From positions 1 to 30,042 of the IMG/VR virus record IMGVR_UViG_3300049826_000034: a DNA stretch of 30,042 bases. The stretch is one strand, 5' to 3'. Below the pieces are notes generated by a model. The model was not told the origin of the DNA, made no database searches, and worked only from the letters and a program-made list of their open reading frames with translations. Position numbers and translations under genes: made by a program. Source of the stretch: a virus. This document shows, piece after piece, positions 15,943-29,980 of the stretch (the stretch's first letter is position 1; every line of letters begins with the position of its first letter).

Positions 15943-18060
15943 TTAAGCCAGCGTAGCCGTAGTAGTGGCCCCAGCACCGCCAGAAGACCCAGAGTTTAAA
16001 GCGCCAGAACTGGATACAGAATGCACCCCAGTAAGCGTACCAAAGTTAATAAGATCTATGTATCCACTCTCCGCCCCTCTAGCCCCTGTGCCAGCGGTGG
16101 AGTTAGTTCCCGTCCCTGTTCCGCCGTTACCACCGTTACCGCCGTTGGCCTGGAAAAGAGACACTACTGATGGGCCGGTGTGCAGATTGTATGCACAATA
16201 TATATATCCACCTCCACCGCCACCACCGCCACCTCCGCCTCCGGCTCCGTTGATACCATTGGCTCCGTTACCGCCATTGCCGCCGTTGGCTTGAATGACT
16301 CCCGCTGGAGTAGACCCAGAGGTGATGATCTCGTCCGCATAGATGACGACGATACCGGCTCCTACAGCACCGCCGCCTCCACCACGTCCTAGAACTGCGG
16401 CTCCGTCGCCACCTCCGGAAGATCCGCCGCGACCAGAAGATCCGCCAGAGATCAATGAAGCACCGCGAGTAAACTGAGTCTCAAATCTTGCGAAAGTGAT
16501 CCTGTTAGTAACAGTTCCAGAAGATGATGATGCTCCTCCGGCATTGACCCCTGTTCCACCGGCTCCTGTCTGCCCGCCCTGTCCCCCGTTTCCTGGGTTA
16601 AGGGCTCCTGTAGCTCCACCAGTGGTTCCAGCCCCCGTGGTTCCGGTGGCACCAGCCGTTCCGTTACCGCCTCCTCCACCGACTAGGCCAGATGGCGTGT
16701 TGGAAGTCGCCGCAGTACCGCCAGTTTGGTTGGCCGCGTTGTTTCCGTTCAATCCGTTCGCTATGATTGCTCCCGCTGGAGCATTGGAAAGATCAAGAGT
16801 CTTACAGTAAATAGGATATCCGTTTACTGTAATTGCGGCGCCAGCCGTTAGAGTTAGTTTGTTGTAGTAGACAGGGCCAGATAGAGGCAGAGGGGCGCTC
16901 AGGGTTACGTCTCCAAGGTATCCGTCGCCGAAATCCTGTCCTAAGTTCTCGTCACTCCACTCTGGAACACCGGCCACCACCCTAAGTAATTGATCGGTGA
17001 TTCCTATGGGGAGTCTTCCAAGAGCCCCCGATGCCCGGCGAATTATATCGCCGTTTGTGGTTGTGGGGTCTGTTGCCTTTAATGCCAAAGCATCGAATAC
17101 AGCATTTCTAGATGGAGCGTGTGTCGTGTCTGCGTCAGCAATAGAGTCAATAACAACCGCTGTCTGTGCCCTGCCATCAGTGTAGAACTTATTGGTTCCC
17201 TCTGTCATGTCATCCGTAGTCAGGGTCACAACACCTTGCTTGCCAGCGACACTCACCACTTGGTCTGTATTATCTACTTTTTCCCATACAGACCCATTGA
17301 AGATGGCCCAGTCATTTACTTTCCATTCAGATGTTCCGTCTAGACTGGTAGAACCAGCGTTGTTTACCCTGTAGTAATATCCTTTCGTGCCAATACCAGA
17401 TGCCAGGGCTGGGGAATTAGAGCCAGCGTCCCACGTTCCCTGGTACGAAACTCCTCCCACCACTGACGCCGGTAACTGGGAGACAGGTATTTTAGATGAC
17501 CCGTCAAGAGTGGCGAGTCCGTTGGCCGCAGCTTTTTGAGCGGTTATTCTGGCGTCAGCAGCCGTGCTGAAATCAGAAACAGTAGCCGCTAGTTGTGTGC
17601 CAGTGTGGTTGGCTCTTTGAATGGAAAATGCTTGCACAGCCGCATCCGCTGCTGCTTGAGCAGTGCTGACCGGCTTGTTTACATCCGACGTGTTGTCGAC
17701 GTTGCTCAGGCCCACATCCGCTTTTACTATTCCTGTCGGACTATTTATTACTGGAGAAGTCAAAGTCTTGTTTGTCAGAGTGGCCGTGGCTGAGTTCTTA
17801 GTGGCGTCACTTGTGTTGTCGACGTTGCTCAGGCCAATATCGGACTTGGATAATACCACCACCCCCGAGTATCCATTGACTGATACTACTGACACCGCAC
17901 CAGCTGTGTAATACGCCAGTGAGTTCCATAGTGTCGACCCATCTCCTATCTTGAGTTTACCTGTGTCGGACTCATAGGCCCACTCACCAGCCAAAAGCAG
18001 GGAGTTTGCCGATGTCCAGTTAGCCGCTGTGTCTACTCGTGCCTGTATTCTGTTAGCCAT
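15943..18060 (-). CDS. Glycine-rich fibre/appendage protein with Mtd-like N-terminus
   Basis: 705 residues from the ATG at 18060, chosen because GGAGGAG lies 11 bases upstream and the start reads MANRIQARVDTAANWTSANS, then GEWAYESDTGKLKIGDGSTL, an N-terminal module found in phage fibres and in the Mtd tropism protein. Two copies of GLSNVDNTSD (about residues 75 and 116) mark a shaft repeat encoded by a 22-base DNA repeat. From about residue 440 the protein turns extremely glycine-rich, including an unbroken run of 12 Gly near residue 622 and NGGNGGNG blocks, resembling polyglycine sandwich tips of T-even adhesins. Likely a host-binding or capsid-surface appendage. Confidence 0.8.
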   Translation of the reverse strand: MANRIQARVDTAANWTSANSLLLAGEWAYESDTGKLKIGDGSTLWNSLAYYTAGAVSVVSVNGYSGVVVLSKSDIGLSNVDNTSDATKNSATATLTNKTLTSPVINSPTGIVKADVGLSNVDNTSDVNKPVSTAQAAADAAVQAFSIQRANHTGTQLAATVSDFSTAADARITAQKAAANGLATLDGSSKIPVSQLPASVVGGVSYQGTWDAGSNSPALASGIGTKGYYYRVNNAGSTSLDGTSEWKVNDWAIFNGSVWEKVDNTDQVVSVAGKQGVVTLTTDDMTEGTNKFYTDGRAQTAVVIDSIADADTTHAPSRNAVFDALALKATDPTTTNGDIIRRASGALGRLPIGITDQLLRVVAGVPEWSDENLGQDFGDGYLGDVTLSAPLPLSGPVYYNKLTLTAGAAITVNGYPIYCKTLDLSNAPAGAIIANGLNGNNAANQTGGTAATSNTPSGLVGGGGGNGTAGATGTTGAGTTGGATGALNPGNGGQGGQTGAGGTGVNAGGASSSSGTVTNRITFARFETQFTRGASLISGGSSGRGGSSGGGDGAAVLGRGGGGGAVGAGIVVIYADEIITSGSTPAGVIQANGGNGGNGANGINGAGGGGGGGGGGGGYIYCAYNLHTGPSVVSLFQANGGNGGNGGTGTGTNSTAGTGARGAESGYIDLINFGTLTGVHSVSSSGALNSGSSGGAGATTTATLA
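17691..17835. repeat. 22-bp direct repeat inside the fibre gene
   Basis: The same 22 bases occur at 17691-17712 and 17814-17835; they share the core GTCGACGTTGCTCAGG. On the minus strand they encode the fibre motif GLSNVDNTS. They are coding shaft repeats and also a site where homologous exchange or slippage could lengthen or shorten the fibre by 41 codons. Confidence 0.85.
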
Positions 18061-18250
18061 TTGCGTCTGCTCCTCCAAGGACTTCACTTGAAACGAAAGT
18101 GGCCGTAGCACCCGCTCCGCCTAAAGTTCCTAGGTATGTAGTTGGCCCCGGAATTCCCACGGGCGCGGTCTCAATAACCAAAGTCTGTACTGGTGCCACC
18201 GTGACAGAGATATTATCGACCTCTGAAATGACGACTTCAACATCACTCAT
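18053..18250 (-). CDS. Small hypothetical protein (65 aa) before the fibre gene
   Basis: Unknown function. The sequence begins MSDVEVVISEVDNISVTVAP, is rich in Val, Thr and Gly, and contains APVGIPGPTTYLGTLGG, a Pro-Gly stretch of the sort found in small proteins encoded just upstream of phage fibres. It could be a short trimeric adaptor or a fibre-base protein. The ATG at 18250 overlaps the upstream stop (ATGA), and its stop overlaps the fibre start by eight bases, so both junctions suggest coupled translation. Confidence 0.6.
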   Translation of the reverse strand: MSDVEVVISEVDNISVTVAPVQTLVIETAPVGIPGPTTYLGTLGGAGATATFVSSEVLGGADANG

Positions 18251-27405: not shown

Positions 27406-28968
27406 CTACAGTAAATAGCTGTCTTCTCCAGAATCACTCTCGTCTCTTCTTTTATCATCCCTGCCCATCTTTGGTTTTTTGGATATCTCTATGACCCAGA
27501 AGTCACTCATCGTGTCCCCCTCGATCTTCTCCGTCTCAAAAACTTTTTTACCGTCCAGGTCACGATAGATATTTAAAAATGGCATGACGTGAGCAAAGTC
27601 TGGCACCACAACCCTGCTATTGTTTCCTGCTTTCCTTGGTACTTGGGCCGCAATAGTGGAGAATAAAAAACCTTTTTCTGGGTCGTGCTTAATTCTACCT
27701 CCAGGGGCAGCAGTGAGTAGGGACCTCACAACAACTTTCTGCCAGGAGAACATGCTGTCACTAGCTAGTCTCCAGAACATCGGGCCTTTATAGGCCAAGT
27801 GGGGCCACTTCTTAGAGCGGCCCCTGCGTTTTATCCACCTGGCTATCTGGGCCACGAACTCGGCGTCGAATTCCGGGGACTGCTCATCTACCTTTTTCTT
27901 GAGAGTATCTATCTCCTCATTGGTCATGCTGTGCAGTAGGTCGGTCTTACCGATGTCCAGAGGGGCGAACTTCCTAGCGTCGTAAGCTATGTAGTTATTT
28001 CTTGGGTCATTGTTGCTGATAACGAAAGAGCAGAAAATATCCGATGAGGGGGTGGAGTCCACTCCCTTTAGTTCAATGGACACCGTCTGGTTAGGAAGTT
28101 CCTTAAGACGCGGCTCTAGTTTGTGGGAGTACTCTAGCTCGTCAAACCAGTGGAGAGTGTTACCCACCAGCGCCCCGTTGAAATTGCTAGTCAGAGTTGT
28201 TAGTTTCCCGTCTACAGTGTTAGAGCGCCCGTGCAGGGCGGTCATAACGCTCTTGAGAGTATTCTTACCCACCCCAGGAGCCCCGCAAAGAACAAGAAAT
28301 GTTGCCGCCCTTCCGTACATTGAGTCGTGAAGCCAGCTGTAGAAAAAATCCCTCTCTACTGGGAGCGGGATTAGATGGTTAACAAGTTTTAGGAACAGGG
28401 CGGGCAATGTGTCCTTGGTCTTGCCCGGATATTTGGTCCATGCTGGGGGGATATAGGTGTTGAGGACTCGCTGTGTCGTACCGTCCCGGCATTTTCTCTC
28501 ACTTACTCCGGGCTCTCCTCTTGGCTGATACTCCGGGACCACATGCCTAGAAGCTATAACGGCTTCGGCTTCCGACATACCGCACACCTTGATGTAGGAG
28601 TTCCCGGTTATCGTAGTCATCTTGATATCGTCTTTGGTCAGAAAAAATGATGTGTCCTTAGAGGACAGGTCCATATTCAATTGATAGCCAGCGTATTCCA
28701 GGGGGATGACTACTTCCCTCTCTCCAGCCCATACCCCTGTATCCTTTGCATGGCCTATTAGAATTTCCTTCATAGCCCTATCGTCGTAGAGGGCATCGCC
28801 AAGTCCTGGGAACTTCTTAGCGTCCCTGCCAAGGGCTTCACGGAAGACATCTGTGAATGCCTCGGGGGTGAAATTGCCTTTAGAGGTCCGTATGGGCTTT
28901 ATCAGCTTCTCATCGTATTTTTTGATTTCAATCCGCGCCAAACTAAGCGCGTCGGCTATCTCACTCAT
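27406..28968 (-). CDS. SF3-type primase-helicase (DUF5906-like)
   Basis: 520 residues. Walker A GAPGVGKNT (229-237), Walker B WFDELE (274-279) and the SF3 sensor SNND (318-321) are clear, with a lysine-rich motif C region. Residues 1-170 are a partner domain without a visible catalytic primase motif. Related phage proteins unwind DNA at the origin or couple primase activity. The C-terminus (about 410-480) includes a possible DNA-binding winged-helix region (PEKGFLFSTIAAQVPRKAGN). It is the first gene of the packaging-head cluster: replication and packaging are in one transcript. GGGGAG lies seven bases before the ATG. Confidence 0.85.
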   Translation of the reverse strand: MSEIADALSLARIEIKKYDEKLIKPIRTSKGNFTPEAFTDVFREALGRDAKKFPGLGDALYDDRAMKEILIGHAKDTGVWAGEREVVIPLEYAGYQLNMDLSSKDTSFFLTKDDIKMTTITGNSYIKVCGMSEAEAVIASRHVVPEYQPRGEPGVSERKCRDGTTQRVLNTYIPPAWTKYPGKTKDTLPALFLKLVNHLIPLPVERDFFYSWLHDSMYGRAATFLVLCGAPGVGKNTLKSVMTALHGRSNTVDGKLTTLTSNFNGALVGNTLHWFDELEYSHKLEPRLKELPNQTVSIELKGVDSTPSSDIFCSFVISNNDPRNNYIAYDARKFAPLDIGKTDLLHSMTNEEIDTLKKKVDEQSPEFDAEFVAQIARWIKRRGRSKKWPHLAYKGPMFWRLASDSMFSWQKVVVRSLLTAAPGGRIKHDPEKGFLFSTIAAQVPRKAGNNSRVVVPDFAHVMPFLNIYRDLDGKKVFETEKIEGDTMSDFWVIEISKKPKMGRDDKRRDESDSGEDSYLL

Positions 28969-29119
28969 TTAGAATCTCCCCAAGGACCGTTGCTTGGGTT
29001 AAACAGTTAGCGATTGTAAAAGGGTTTGTAAATGTTATTGTTCGCCACAGTCCGCCAACTCCCCGGAAGTCTCCCAAGTTCAAATAGGTCGTTGCTGTCA
29101 AATTTGTCCACGCGGTCAC
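28961..29119 (-). CDS. Possible small ORF or remnant overlapping the helicase start
   Basis: An open frame of 52 residues from GTG at 29119 (no ATG). It reads TAWTNLTATTYLNLGDFRGV then GGLWRTITFTNPFTIANCLT and ends GEILNE, which looks like a genuine Thr-rich beta protein segment. Its stop overlaps the helicase ATG by eight bases. There is no good ribosome site, and a TAA lies eight codons further upstream, so it may be the 3' remnant of a longer gene. I am not sure it is expressed. Confidence 0.3.
   Translation of the reverse strand: MTAWTNLTATTYLNLGDFRGVGGLWRTITFTNPFTIANCLTQATVLGEILNE
28979..28998 (-). repeat. Hairpin over the helicase ribosome site
   Basis: CCCAAG and CTTGGG (six bases, loop of eight) sit ten bases before the helicase ATG and include part of its GGGGAG ribosome site. 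Folding in mRNA would hide the site, while translation of the small frame above would open it. This is a possible translational control element, weakly supported. Confidence 0.4.
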
Positions 29120-29201
29120 ACCGGGGGTTGGTGGACCGCTTTACAAAAAACACCGGCCCATAAAATCCGGCCACCAAAACTCTCTAAACCATAGTTACAT
29201 C

Positions 29202-29271
29202 AGAGAAAAAAAAACGAACACTGCCCCTTCCTTTCCGGGAAACAAATTTTATTATATTTTTTTTTTTCTCT
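29202..29271. repeat. A-rich/T-rich inverted repeat with nested GGGCAG pairing
   Basis: AGAGAAAAAAAAA (29202-29214) is complementary to TTTTTTTTTCTCT (29259-29271), a 13-base stem around 44 bases. CTGCCC (29221-29226) can pair with GGGCAG (29278-29283), which crosses the first stem and could make a pseudoknot. Inside are TATAAT (minus strand) and the dyad TTTCCGGGAAA (29234-29244). Confidence 0.6.
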
Positions 29272-29294
29272 AAGAATGGGCAGAACTCCACCTC

Positions 29295-29459
29295 GCCAAA
29301 TCGAATTAAAAAGCTGGAAATGCGTTATATTTGAGTACGAGCCATTTAAACCAAACCACTATGGGTGACAAAAGCGATACACTTTGCCCATACTACTATG
29401 GTTTAGGTGTATCGCTTTTGATTGTCATAGTGGTTTGGTTTAATTCTGCCAAATCGAAT
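29295..29459. repeat. 12-bp direct repeats flanking the hairpin
   Basis: GCCAAATCGAAT occurs at 29295-29306 and 29448-29459. Both copies lie outside the large hairpin, one four bases from it and the other about 39 bases away. They could be protein-binding iterons, or the target-duplication-like ends of an inserted element, though the unequal distances argue against a simple insertion. Confidence 0.7.
29346..29443. repeat. Large imperfect hairpin, 37-base arms
   Basis: Arms 29346-29382 and 29407-29443 are complementary except for one five-base internal mismatch (GGTGA facing ATTGT). The outer arm begins TTAAACCAAACCACTATG. The loop holds CCATA/TATGG, a small inner hairpin, and ACTATGGTTTAG (29395-29406), which is complementary to CTAAACCATAGT at 29184-29195. 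No U-tract follows on either strand, so it is not a standard terminator. Confidence 0.8.
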
Positions 29460-29520
29460 ATACGAGTTTAAATTGAGAATAGTTATCAATTAAAAAGAGC
29501 AAAAATGACCGTTTTTGGCC

Positions 29521-29805
29521 CTAATTTTCGTCCAAAATTATGACCAAAATTGGGTCTGGGTGGGACTTCTTCCAGGCCTTTTCACGGTTCACATCGTCCA
29601 TCGCTTTCTTGGCTATTTCTTGGTTTCTTTGCATGAAAGGATCGTCCGTATGATCGGTGAATCTGCGCTCCCCTCTTTCCGCTTTTAGGCGTGGCATATC
29701 TCTTGGAGAGATGGTCCACCAGCCATCAAAATTTGCCATATAGCTGGCACATCCAGTGCCCAAAAGTGACATCAAAACGACCGAAACTAGCCCCAGTTTT
29801 CTCAT
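29521..29805 (-). CDS. Small lipoprotein of unknown role
   Basis: 94 residues from the ATG at 29805, with GGAAGGCGGG upstream; a GTG at 29829 would add eight residues and spoil the signal peptide. MRKLGLVSVVLMSLLGTGC is a lipoprotein signal, with Cys19 as the lipidated residue; the -3 residue is Gly rather than Leu, so it is slightly off consensus. The mature part (about 75 residues) is polar with GWWTISPRDMPRLKAERG and a helical, Lys-rich end. Phage lipoproteins can block superinfection or act in lysis, but no motif decides. It stands alone, upstream of the noncoding region. Confidence 0.7.
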   Translation of the reverse strand: MRKLGLVSVVLMSLLGTGCASYMANFDGWWTISPRDMPRLKAERGERRFTDHTDDPFMQRNQEIAKKAMDDVNREKAWKKSHPDPILVIILDEN

Positions 29806-29892
29806 GTTTCCCGCCTTCCGTGACTTCACCTATCTATAGCAATCTATCGGCCACCCTTTAGAAACTCTTGAGAACTTCCGACAAGTGTATGC

Positions 29893-29937: not shown

Positions 29938-29980
29938 CTACCCGTAGTGTTTGAGTTCAAATCCCACACTACCCGTAGTG
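29938..29980. promoter_or_regulatory. Operator-like palindromes, two copies
   Basis: CTACCCGTAGTG occurs at 29938-29949 and 29969-29980, 31 bases apart, about three helix turns. The second copy extends to the dyad CACTAC-CC-GTAGTG. GTAGTGT (29944-29950) and ACACTAC (29966-29972) also pair with each other. This is the layout of paired operators for a dimeric repressor or activator in the region upstream of the lipoprotein gene. Confidence 0.6.

Follow-up and report, generated by a model that had tools for sequence, protein, structure and literature searches.

The question raised by this locus is what a long stem-loop does in the gap between two genes of a phage. The window, by which we mean the whole IMG/VR record IMGVR_UViG_3300049826_000034 (30,042 bp), is classed as linear and is possibly a fragment. 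Almost all of its genes lie on the minus strand, in the order tail fibre and tail genes, tape measure, tail tube, connector, portal, HK97-type capsid and protease, then the large and small terminases, a 520-aa protein and a 102-aa lipoprotein-like ORF. The hairpin is found in the 552-bp gap between the last two, about 78 nt past the stop codon of the lipoprotein-like ORF and 378 bp upstream of the start of the 520-aa protein, which we regard as a putative helicase. The helicase gene is directly followed by terS, and the hairpin lies two genes upstream of the large terminase gene. Searches for DNA similarity between the window and known phages gave only chance matches of 22-25 nt, and a tRNA search found none. 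No origin signal was seen in the GC skew of the window or of the records of its relatives, but GC skew is uninformative here because the genes all point one way and the records are fragments. Near the contig end, at 29938-29980, copies of a direct repeat, CTACCCGTAGTG, flank GTTTGAGTTCAAATCCCAC, a sequence similar to a tRNA T-arm although ARAGORN reports no tRNA; this repeat could be an attachment site. Farther away, 15943-18111 on the minus strand encodes a 722-aa protein with an Mtd_N domain. In major tropism determinants of the type known from Bordetella phage BPP-1, proteins that retroelements in some cases diversify, this domain makes up the N-terminus.

The hairpin is real and far beyond what chance would produce. 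Its arms (29346-29392 and 29397-29443) are 47 nt long and 81% complementary, so that the 37-base arm of the first-pass annotation becomes a longer but imperfect one. The outer parts, TTAAACCAAACCACTATG at 29346-29363 and 29426-29443, match perfectly. From the outside inwards the fold displays an outer stem of 18-19 bp, a symmetric internal loop, a middle stem of 14-16 bp, a second internal loop and an inner stem of 5 bp. Folded as DNA the hairpin has a z-score of -12, with 0 shuffles as good, while the RNA fold of 29180-29465 has a z-score of about -8 on either strand. A count over the whole record, with a minimum of 12 bp and a gap of at most 250, gave three perfect inverted repeats, all at 29184-29420, against a mean of 0.3 in shuffled records. 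When only the local region was shuffled, a perfect 12-bp inverted pair with the same gap limit appeared in 2% of cases. The arm 14-mer ACCAAACCACTATG is found in 119 stretches of viral contigs, none with a matching second arm, and these are taken as chance level.

It had also been noted that the loop carries a 12-mer complementary to 29184-29195, and a kissing RNA contact was proposed. The 12-mer ACTATGGTTTAG is indeed the exact complement, but it takes in no more than part of the loop and runs on through the 5-bp inner stem and an internal loop into the middle stem, where it contributes to two pairs. About five of its 12 bases are unpaired, TATGG being in the inner stem and AG atop the middle stem. 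Opening it costs 8-9 kcal/mol, as against -14.9 for the duplex with 29184-29195, and at this cost the contact would be marginal. The kissing reading was rejected since the 12-mer is mostly paired, neither it nor the arms are conserved in relatives, no Rfam family matches at its gathering score, and the pair is more simply, and best, read as two inverted copies of one repeat containing TAAACCA, a word found four times. The features of the region are collected in Table 1.

Table 1. Positions of the features in and around the helicase-upstream gap of the window, and arm/gap values of the stem-loops in the window and its relatives.
Feature	Position	Strand	Remark
520-aa DUF5906 helicase, candidate initiator	27406..28968	-	C-terminal secondary-structure order in the model as in winged helix
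Promoter-like box TTTACA-17-TAACTG	29004..29032	-	AATAACATTTACAA exact in window, L003, L004, L131, L140
Proximal stem, arms 29123-29138 / 29048-29063, span 91	29048..29138	-	ends 15 nt before promoter-like box
CTAAACCATAGT, candidate iteron copy	29184..29195	+	complement of 29395-29406
A/T-rich tract with inverted repeat AGAGAAAAAAAAA / TTTTTTTTTCTCT (gap 44)	29202..29271	.	candidate unwinding element
Direct repeat GCCAAATCGAAT, copy 1	29295..29306	+	relatives share CCAAAT then two G/C
98-bp stem-loop, candidate origin core	29346..29443	.	middle and inner stems; 4-nt loop 29393-29396
CTAAACCATAGT, inverted candidate iteron copy inside stem-loop	29395..29406	-	top strand reads ACTATGGTTTAG
Direct repeat GCCAAATCGAAT(ATA), copy 2	29448..29459	+	identical 15-mer in L131
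102-aa lipoprotein-like ORF	29521..29829	-	borders intergenic region; small lipoprotein-like ORFs likewise in several relatives
Main stem-loops, arm/gap			window 18/62; L004 15/58 and 14/45; L130 14/57
Main stem-loops, arm/gap			L140 and L142 16/56; L218 17/55; L167 19 with mismatches/50
A/T-rich pairs, arm/gap			13/44 in window and L134

According to the first-pass annotation nothing in the neighbouring coding genes accounts for the hairpin. We come to the opposite view, because the adjacent gene appears to encode a replicative helicase of the NrS-1/D5 type and stem-loops of similar geometry recur upstream of this gene in relatives. A DUF5906 domain is present in the window protein and in all eight aligned relatives; this domain is the AAA+ part of the pox D5 and NrS-1 helicases (PMC9611036). 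A structure model built from the window and locus sequences matched the C-terminal region of NrS-1 in a fold search (E 2e-8, prob 1.0) and, more weakly, SaPI5 Prim-Rep (E 0.01) and pox-type D5/E5 proteins. The model core, residues 250-331, lies below pLDDT 50 and the overall TM is about 0.35, and the proposed helicase identity is thus to be understood at the level of the fold. The C-terminal elements are a helix (408-419), a strand (433-435), two helices (436-442 and 458-467) and two strands (477-481 and 490-494). Judged by this order of modelled secondary structure, and with no database match, the C-terminal domain seems to be winged-helix-like. Pfam detects no primase domain in the protein; PHROGs names the matching family DNA primase. 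A sequence-profile search of the PDB gave no match, close relatives were found neither by a single-protein search with the helicase nor by a genome-contig search, and the cultured phages and plasmids in the searched collections have no detectable relative of the helicase.

Uncultured relatives in IMG/VR were found through helicase and terminase alignments and one DNA pattern. They comprise L003, L004, L130, L131, L134, L135, L140, L142, L218, L219 and L221, and the more distant L163 and L167; the nearer ones have helicases about 38-46% identical to that of the window. Most have an A/T-rich gap of about 400-1,200 bp upstream of the helicase gene, bordered upstream in several of them by a small lipoprotein-like ORF. 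The GC content of these regions is mostly 0.33-0.44, compared with about 0.51 for the whole window. The best inverted repeat of the contig or locus falls in this gap in the window, L142 (G008), L218 (G009), L140 (G007), L130, L003, L004 and L135. A fixed rule (score, in arm bp, of at least 13 and gap 40-70) picks out ten stem-loops from the 8.8 kb of helicase-upstream gaps and three from 299 kb outside them on the same contigs, while dinucleotide shuffles of the gaps contain 0.01 on average and at most one. The threshold was picked after the first cases had been seen, but this cannot explain the excess, the contrast with the shuffles being too large.

The main stem-loops of the relatives have arms of 14-19 bp that are 50-62 nt apart and span 85-89 bp (L004, L140, L142 and L167 88, L130 85, L218 89), against 98 in the window; in every case hardly any shuffle folds as well. 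Their arm sequences fall into four unrelated groups, and the arms and 12-mer of the window could not be aligned to or found in any relative. Conservation of these sequences was the test that the first-pass annotation had set; this was too strict a standard, since it is the geometry and not the sequence that recurs. With 91% identity over the region L140 and L142 are nearly the same, and the arm motif AGTAGGAA is common to L004, L130, L140 and L142, four of the six relatives whose geometry matches, so that the number of independent cases is about four. The strict geometry is absent from L003 (15-bp arms, gap 147), L135 (gap 127), L163 (gap 23), L219, L221 and the truncated L131, and in L140, L142 and L218 a small gene lies between the stem-loop and the helicase gene. 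The common AGTAGGAA arms argue that sequence matters besides structure. The C-terminal domains of the helicases paired with these arms are 48-62% alike and 38-40% alike to that of the window, a likeness which kinship by itself may explain.

Other hairpins were observed on the same contigs. L130 has a second, very long one at 18-208 (81-nt arms, gap 29), upstream of its 85-bp stem-loop, and L142 (723-841) and L140 at the equivalent place have another long imperfect hairpin directly after the lipoprotein ORF. In this last hairpin TGTTTAG/CTAAACA of L142 is matched by TATTTAG/CTAAATA in L140, which suggests one compensatory change. In L234 (G010, the contig of L219) there is a strong near-perfect palindrome, CTGTCTAATTTTTAGACAG..., at 46692-46748, near the contig end and away from the helicase region.

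Short repeats exceed those of shuffles in most helicase-upstream gaps, with a different word in each lineage group. In the window TAAACCA occurs four times (p = 0.007), a count that comes in part from the stem arms and is not fully independent of the hairpin, and ACTATGG occurs three times; the support for iterons in the window is modest. Other lineages have AGTAGGAA (three to four copies in L004, L130, L140 and L142), ACTTAGG (four in L163), TACAGTA (five in L167), CAACCTC and ATCTCCC, and the signal in L004, L140, L163 and L167 is stronger than in the window. The two 12-bp direct repeats that the first-pass annotation placed outside the arms are there, and 1.5% of the local shuffles contain a repeat of this length. 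They are copies of a second motif, CCAAAT and then two G/C, which is present in all six nearer lineages and in L218. This motif is weakly supported, since among 300 shuffles 10 had some word common to all six lineages. A MITE with a 12-bp target-site duplication was considered and discarded, the direct repeats sitting asymmetrically at 39 and 4 nt from the arm ends.

Closer to the helicase gene most relatives have a proximal stem of 8-19 bp (28 with mismatches in L163) and a span of 49-117 nt, which ends 3-33 nt upstream of a TTTACA or TTGACA box. The box is often followed by 17 nt and a TAAnnT-like hexamer, is found 46-96 nt before the helicase start, and is read as the putative helicase promoter. 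The p values of the individual proximal stems range from 0.016 to 0.26, and combine to about 1e-6 by Fisher's method without L142. Their sequences are mostly unrelated, as in L003 (1459-1544), L219 (2997-3065), L134 (214-291) and L167 (3639-3717). The proximal stem may be another element of the origin, or else a structured RNA. Matches to the box in L138, L139 and L141, contigs without a detectable helicase relative, and in the T4-like contig L243 are taken as chance.

The hairpin is probably the core of a phage DNA replication origin, acting at the DNA level. Structured RNA, replication origin and control switch had all been named for it at the outset, and the comparison with relatives supports the origin, the kissing-RNA form of the proposal having been given up. 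We infer origin activity and binding by the helicase from the stem-loop, its recurrence, the repeats and the fold of the neighbouring protein. The adjacent NrS-1/D5-type helicase would bind lineage-specific repeats through its C-terminal winged-helix-like domain, in the window TAAACCA/CCATAGT in the stem arms, on the loop-proximal strand and at 29184, and perhaps also the flanking GCCAAATCGAAT copies. Helicase rings might then form at the two inverted arms, which lie about 70-80 bp from each other, with melting of the A/T-rich spacer or of the neighbouring tract. For the stem two forms are conceivable: a cruciform extruded in the way that has been modelled for pRN1, or no more than paired inverted binding sites. 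A wider proposal is put forward tentatively: that a family of uncultured tailed phages with such helicases may initiate replication at stem-loops of fixed geometry and free sequence (about 88-98 bp in all, with arms of 14-19 bp and 50-62 nt separating them). A single architecture would then combine the structural type of origin found in pRN1 with the iteron type of P4 and SaPI, its arm sequences changing along with the DNA-binding domain of the initiator.

The same arrangement could be an operator or partition site, where inverted repeats and iterons bind a regulator or segregation protein that controls the helicase operon through DNA looping, the origin being elsewhere. A looping repressor would find suitable sites in the inverted repeats, which are about 70-80 bp apart and precede a promoter-like box, and a purely structural stem would not need an arm motif, AGTAGGAA, common to four lineages. 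We nevertheless find this unlikely, as no regulator or ParA/ParB gene is seen adjoining the region in the window and the neighbour is a putative helicase with functional counterparts, P4 alpha, SaPI Rep and Cch2, that bind repeats at the origins they themselves use (PMC4234260, PMC7581432). An even poorer prospect is that the leader of the helicase operon contains a structured or antisense RNA, similar to P4 CI or C4, in which pairing between the loop and 29184-29195 would decide termination or translation. The exact 12-nt complement does join the hairpin to a site nearer the helicase gene, the RNA fold is strong on both strands and the proximal stem is widespread, but besides the mostly paired state of the 12 nt and its opening cost, the same relation between loop and site is found in no relative. 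No Rfam family reached its gathering score (weak matches over the hairpin were eukaryotic miRNA and snoRNA models, as expected of any long hairpin), and C4 was unmatched even at E 5. The promoter-like box, moreover, is downstream of both elements, and a terminator scan gave one terminator-like site only, within the lipoprotein ORF.

That scan was negative at the hairpin, and neither arm is followed by a U tract. A terminator or insulator ending the lipoprotein unit, although in keeping with a long stem so soon after the stop codon of that ORF, is thus very improbable, the more so as the 50-62 nt between the arms of the relatives is unlike intrinsic terminators. This distance is also unlike telRL sites, which are palindromic. 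Slightest of all is the chance of a packaging site (cos/pac) or hairpin telomere (telRL), a palindrome that would be cut at packaging or resolved by a protelomerase: the hairpin is near the large terminase gene, its imperfect palindrome resembles telomere-resolution sites and several contigs (L130, L131 and L134) start near the region, but the scanned genes of the window, in a record that may be a fragment, include no protelomerase.

Like the C4 and P4 CI antisense RNAs, the element is structured, lies upstream of a replication gene and has a distant complementary segment; unlike them it has no Rfam match and its complement is not conserved, and DNA repeats explain it best.

The origin of P4 has an A/T-rich tract, and we know of no large constant-span stem-loop for it. 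The P4 alpha protein is a helicase-initiator with a winged-helix domain that binds repeats at the origin (PMC4234260). In both systems short specific repeats, here TAAACCA, adjoin the gene of an initiator-helicase, which in our case is a candidate. However, alpha carries a TOPRIM-type primase, while the 520-aa protein is without a detected primase domain. SaPI Rep and SCCmec Cch2 are initiator helicases of the D5/Primase_Cterm type whose C-terminal domain binds iterons beside their own gene; binding by Cch2 survived deletion of inverted repeats, whereas the direct repeats mattered (PMC7581432). SaPI5 Prim-Rep is a fold match of the 520-aa protein model, but the SaPI and SCCmec origins are downstream of the gene (PMC7581432) and the stem-loop here is upstream.

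The best precedent is the origin of the crenarchaeal plasmid pRN1, a 100-bp stem-loop beside the replication gene with a 21-nt stem, a 58-nt loop and an extra stem at 37 C; together with the replication operon it is necessary and sufficient, and its structure is conserved while its sequence is not (PMC4234260). The pRN1 authors proposed a homologous stem-loop origin for the Bordetella phage BIP-1, and the idea of pRN1-like origins in bacteriophages was put forward from this one phage group (PMC4234260). Here too a stem-loop of about 100 bp (98 bp in the window, 85-89 bp in relatives) lies beside a putative SF3-helicase replication gene, and its geometry is kept over four unrelated arm groups, though not in every relative. 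The pRN1 protein combines primase-polymerase, SF3 helicase and winged-helix parts, of which the helicase is suggested here by DUF5906 and the fold and the winged helix by the order of elements in the model. The origin of pRN1 is 3' of the gene and that of the window would be 5', the archaeo-eukaryotic primase domain of ORF904 has no detected counterpart in the 520-aa protein, and the iteron-like repeats seen here are absent from pRN1. Because of the 5' position and the primase domain that was not found, the element is not filed as a pRN1 member. With about 500 bp and one gene, a recurrent element of conserved geometry is a small target for studying the way in which D5/NrS-1-type helicases locate an origin and open it, and it bears on whether the stem is extruded or just spaces two binding sites. 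Taken by analogy, the element most likely works like the pRN1 origin.
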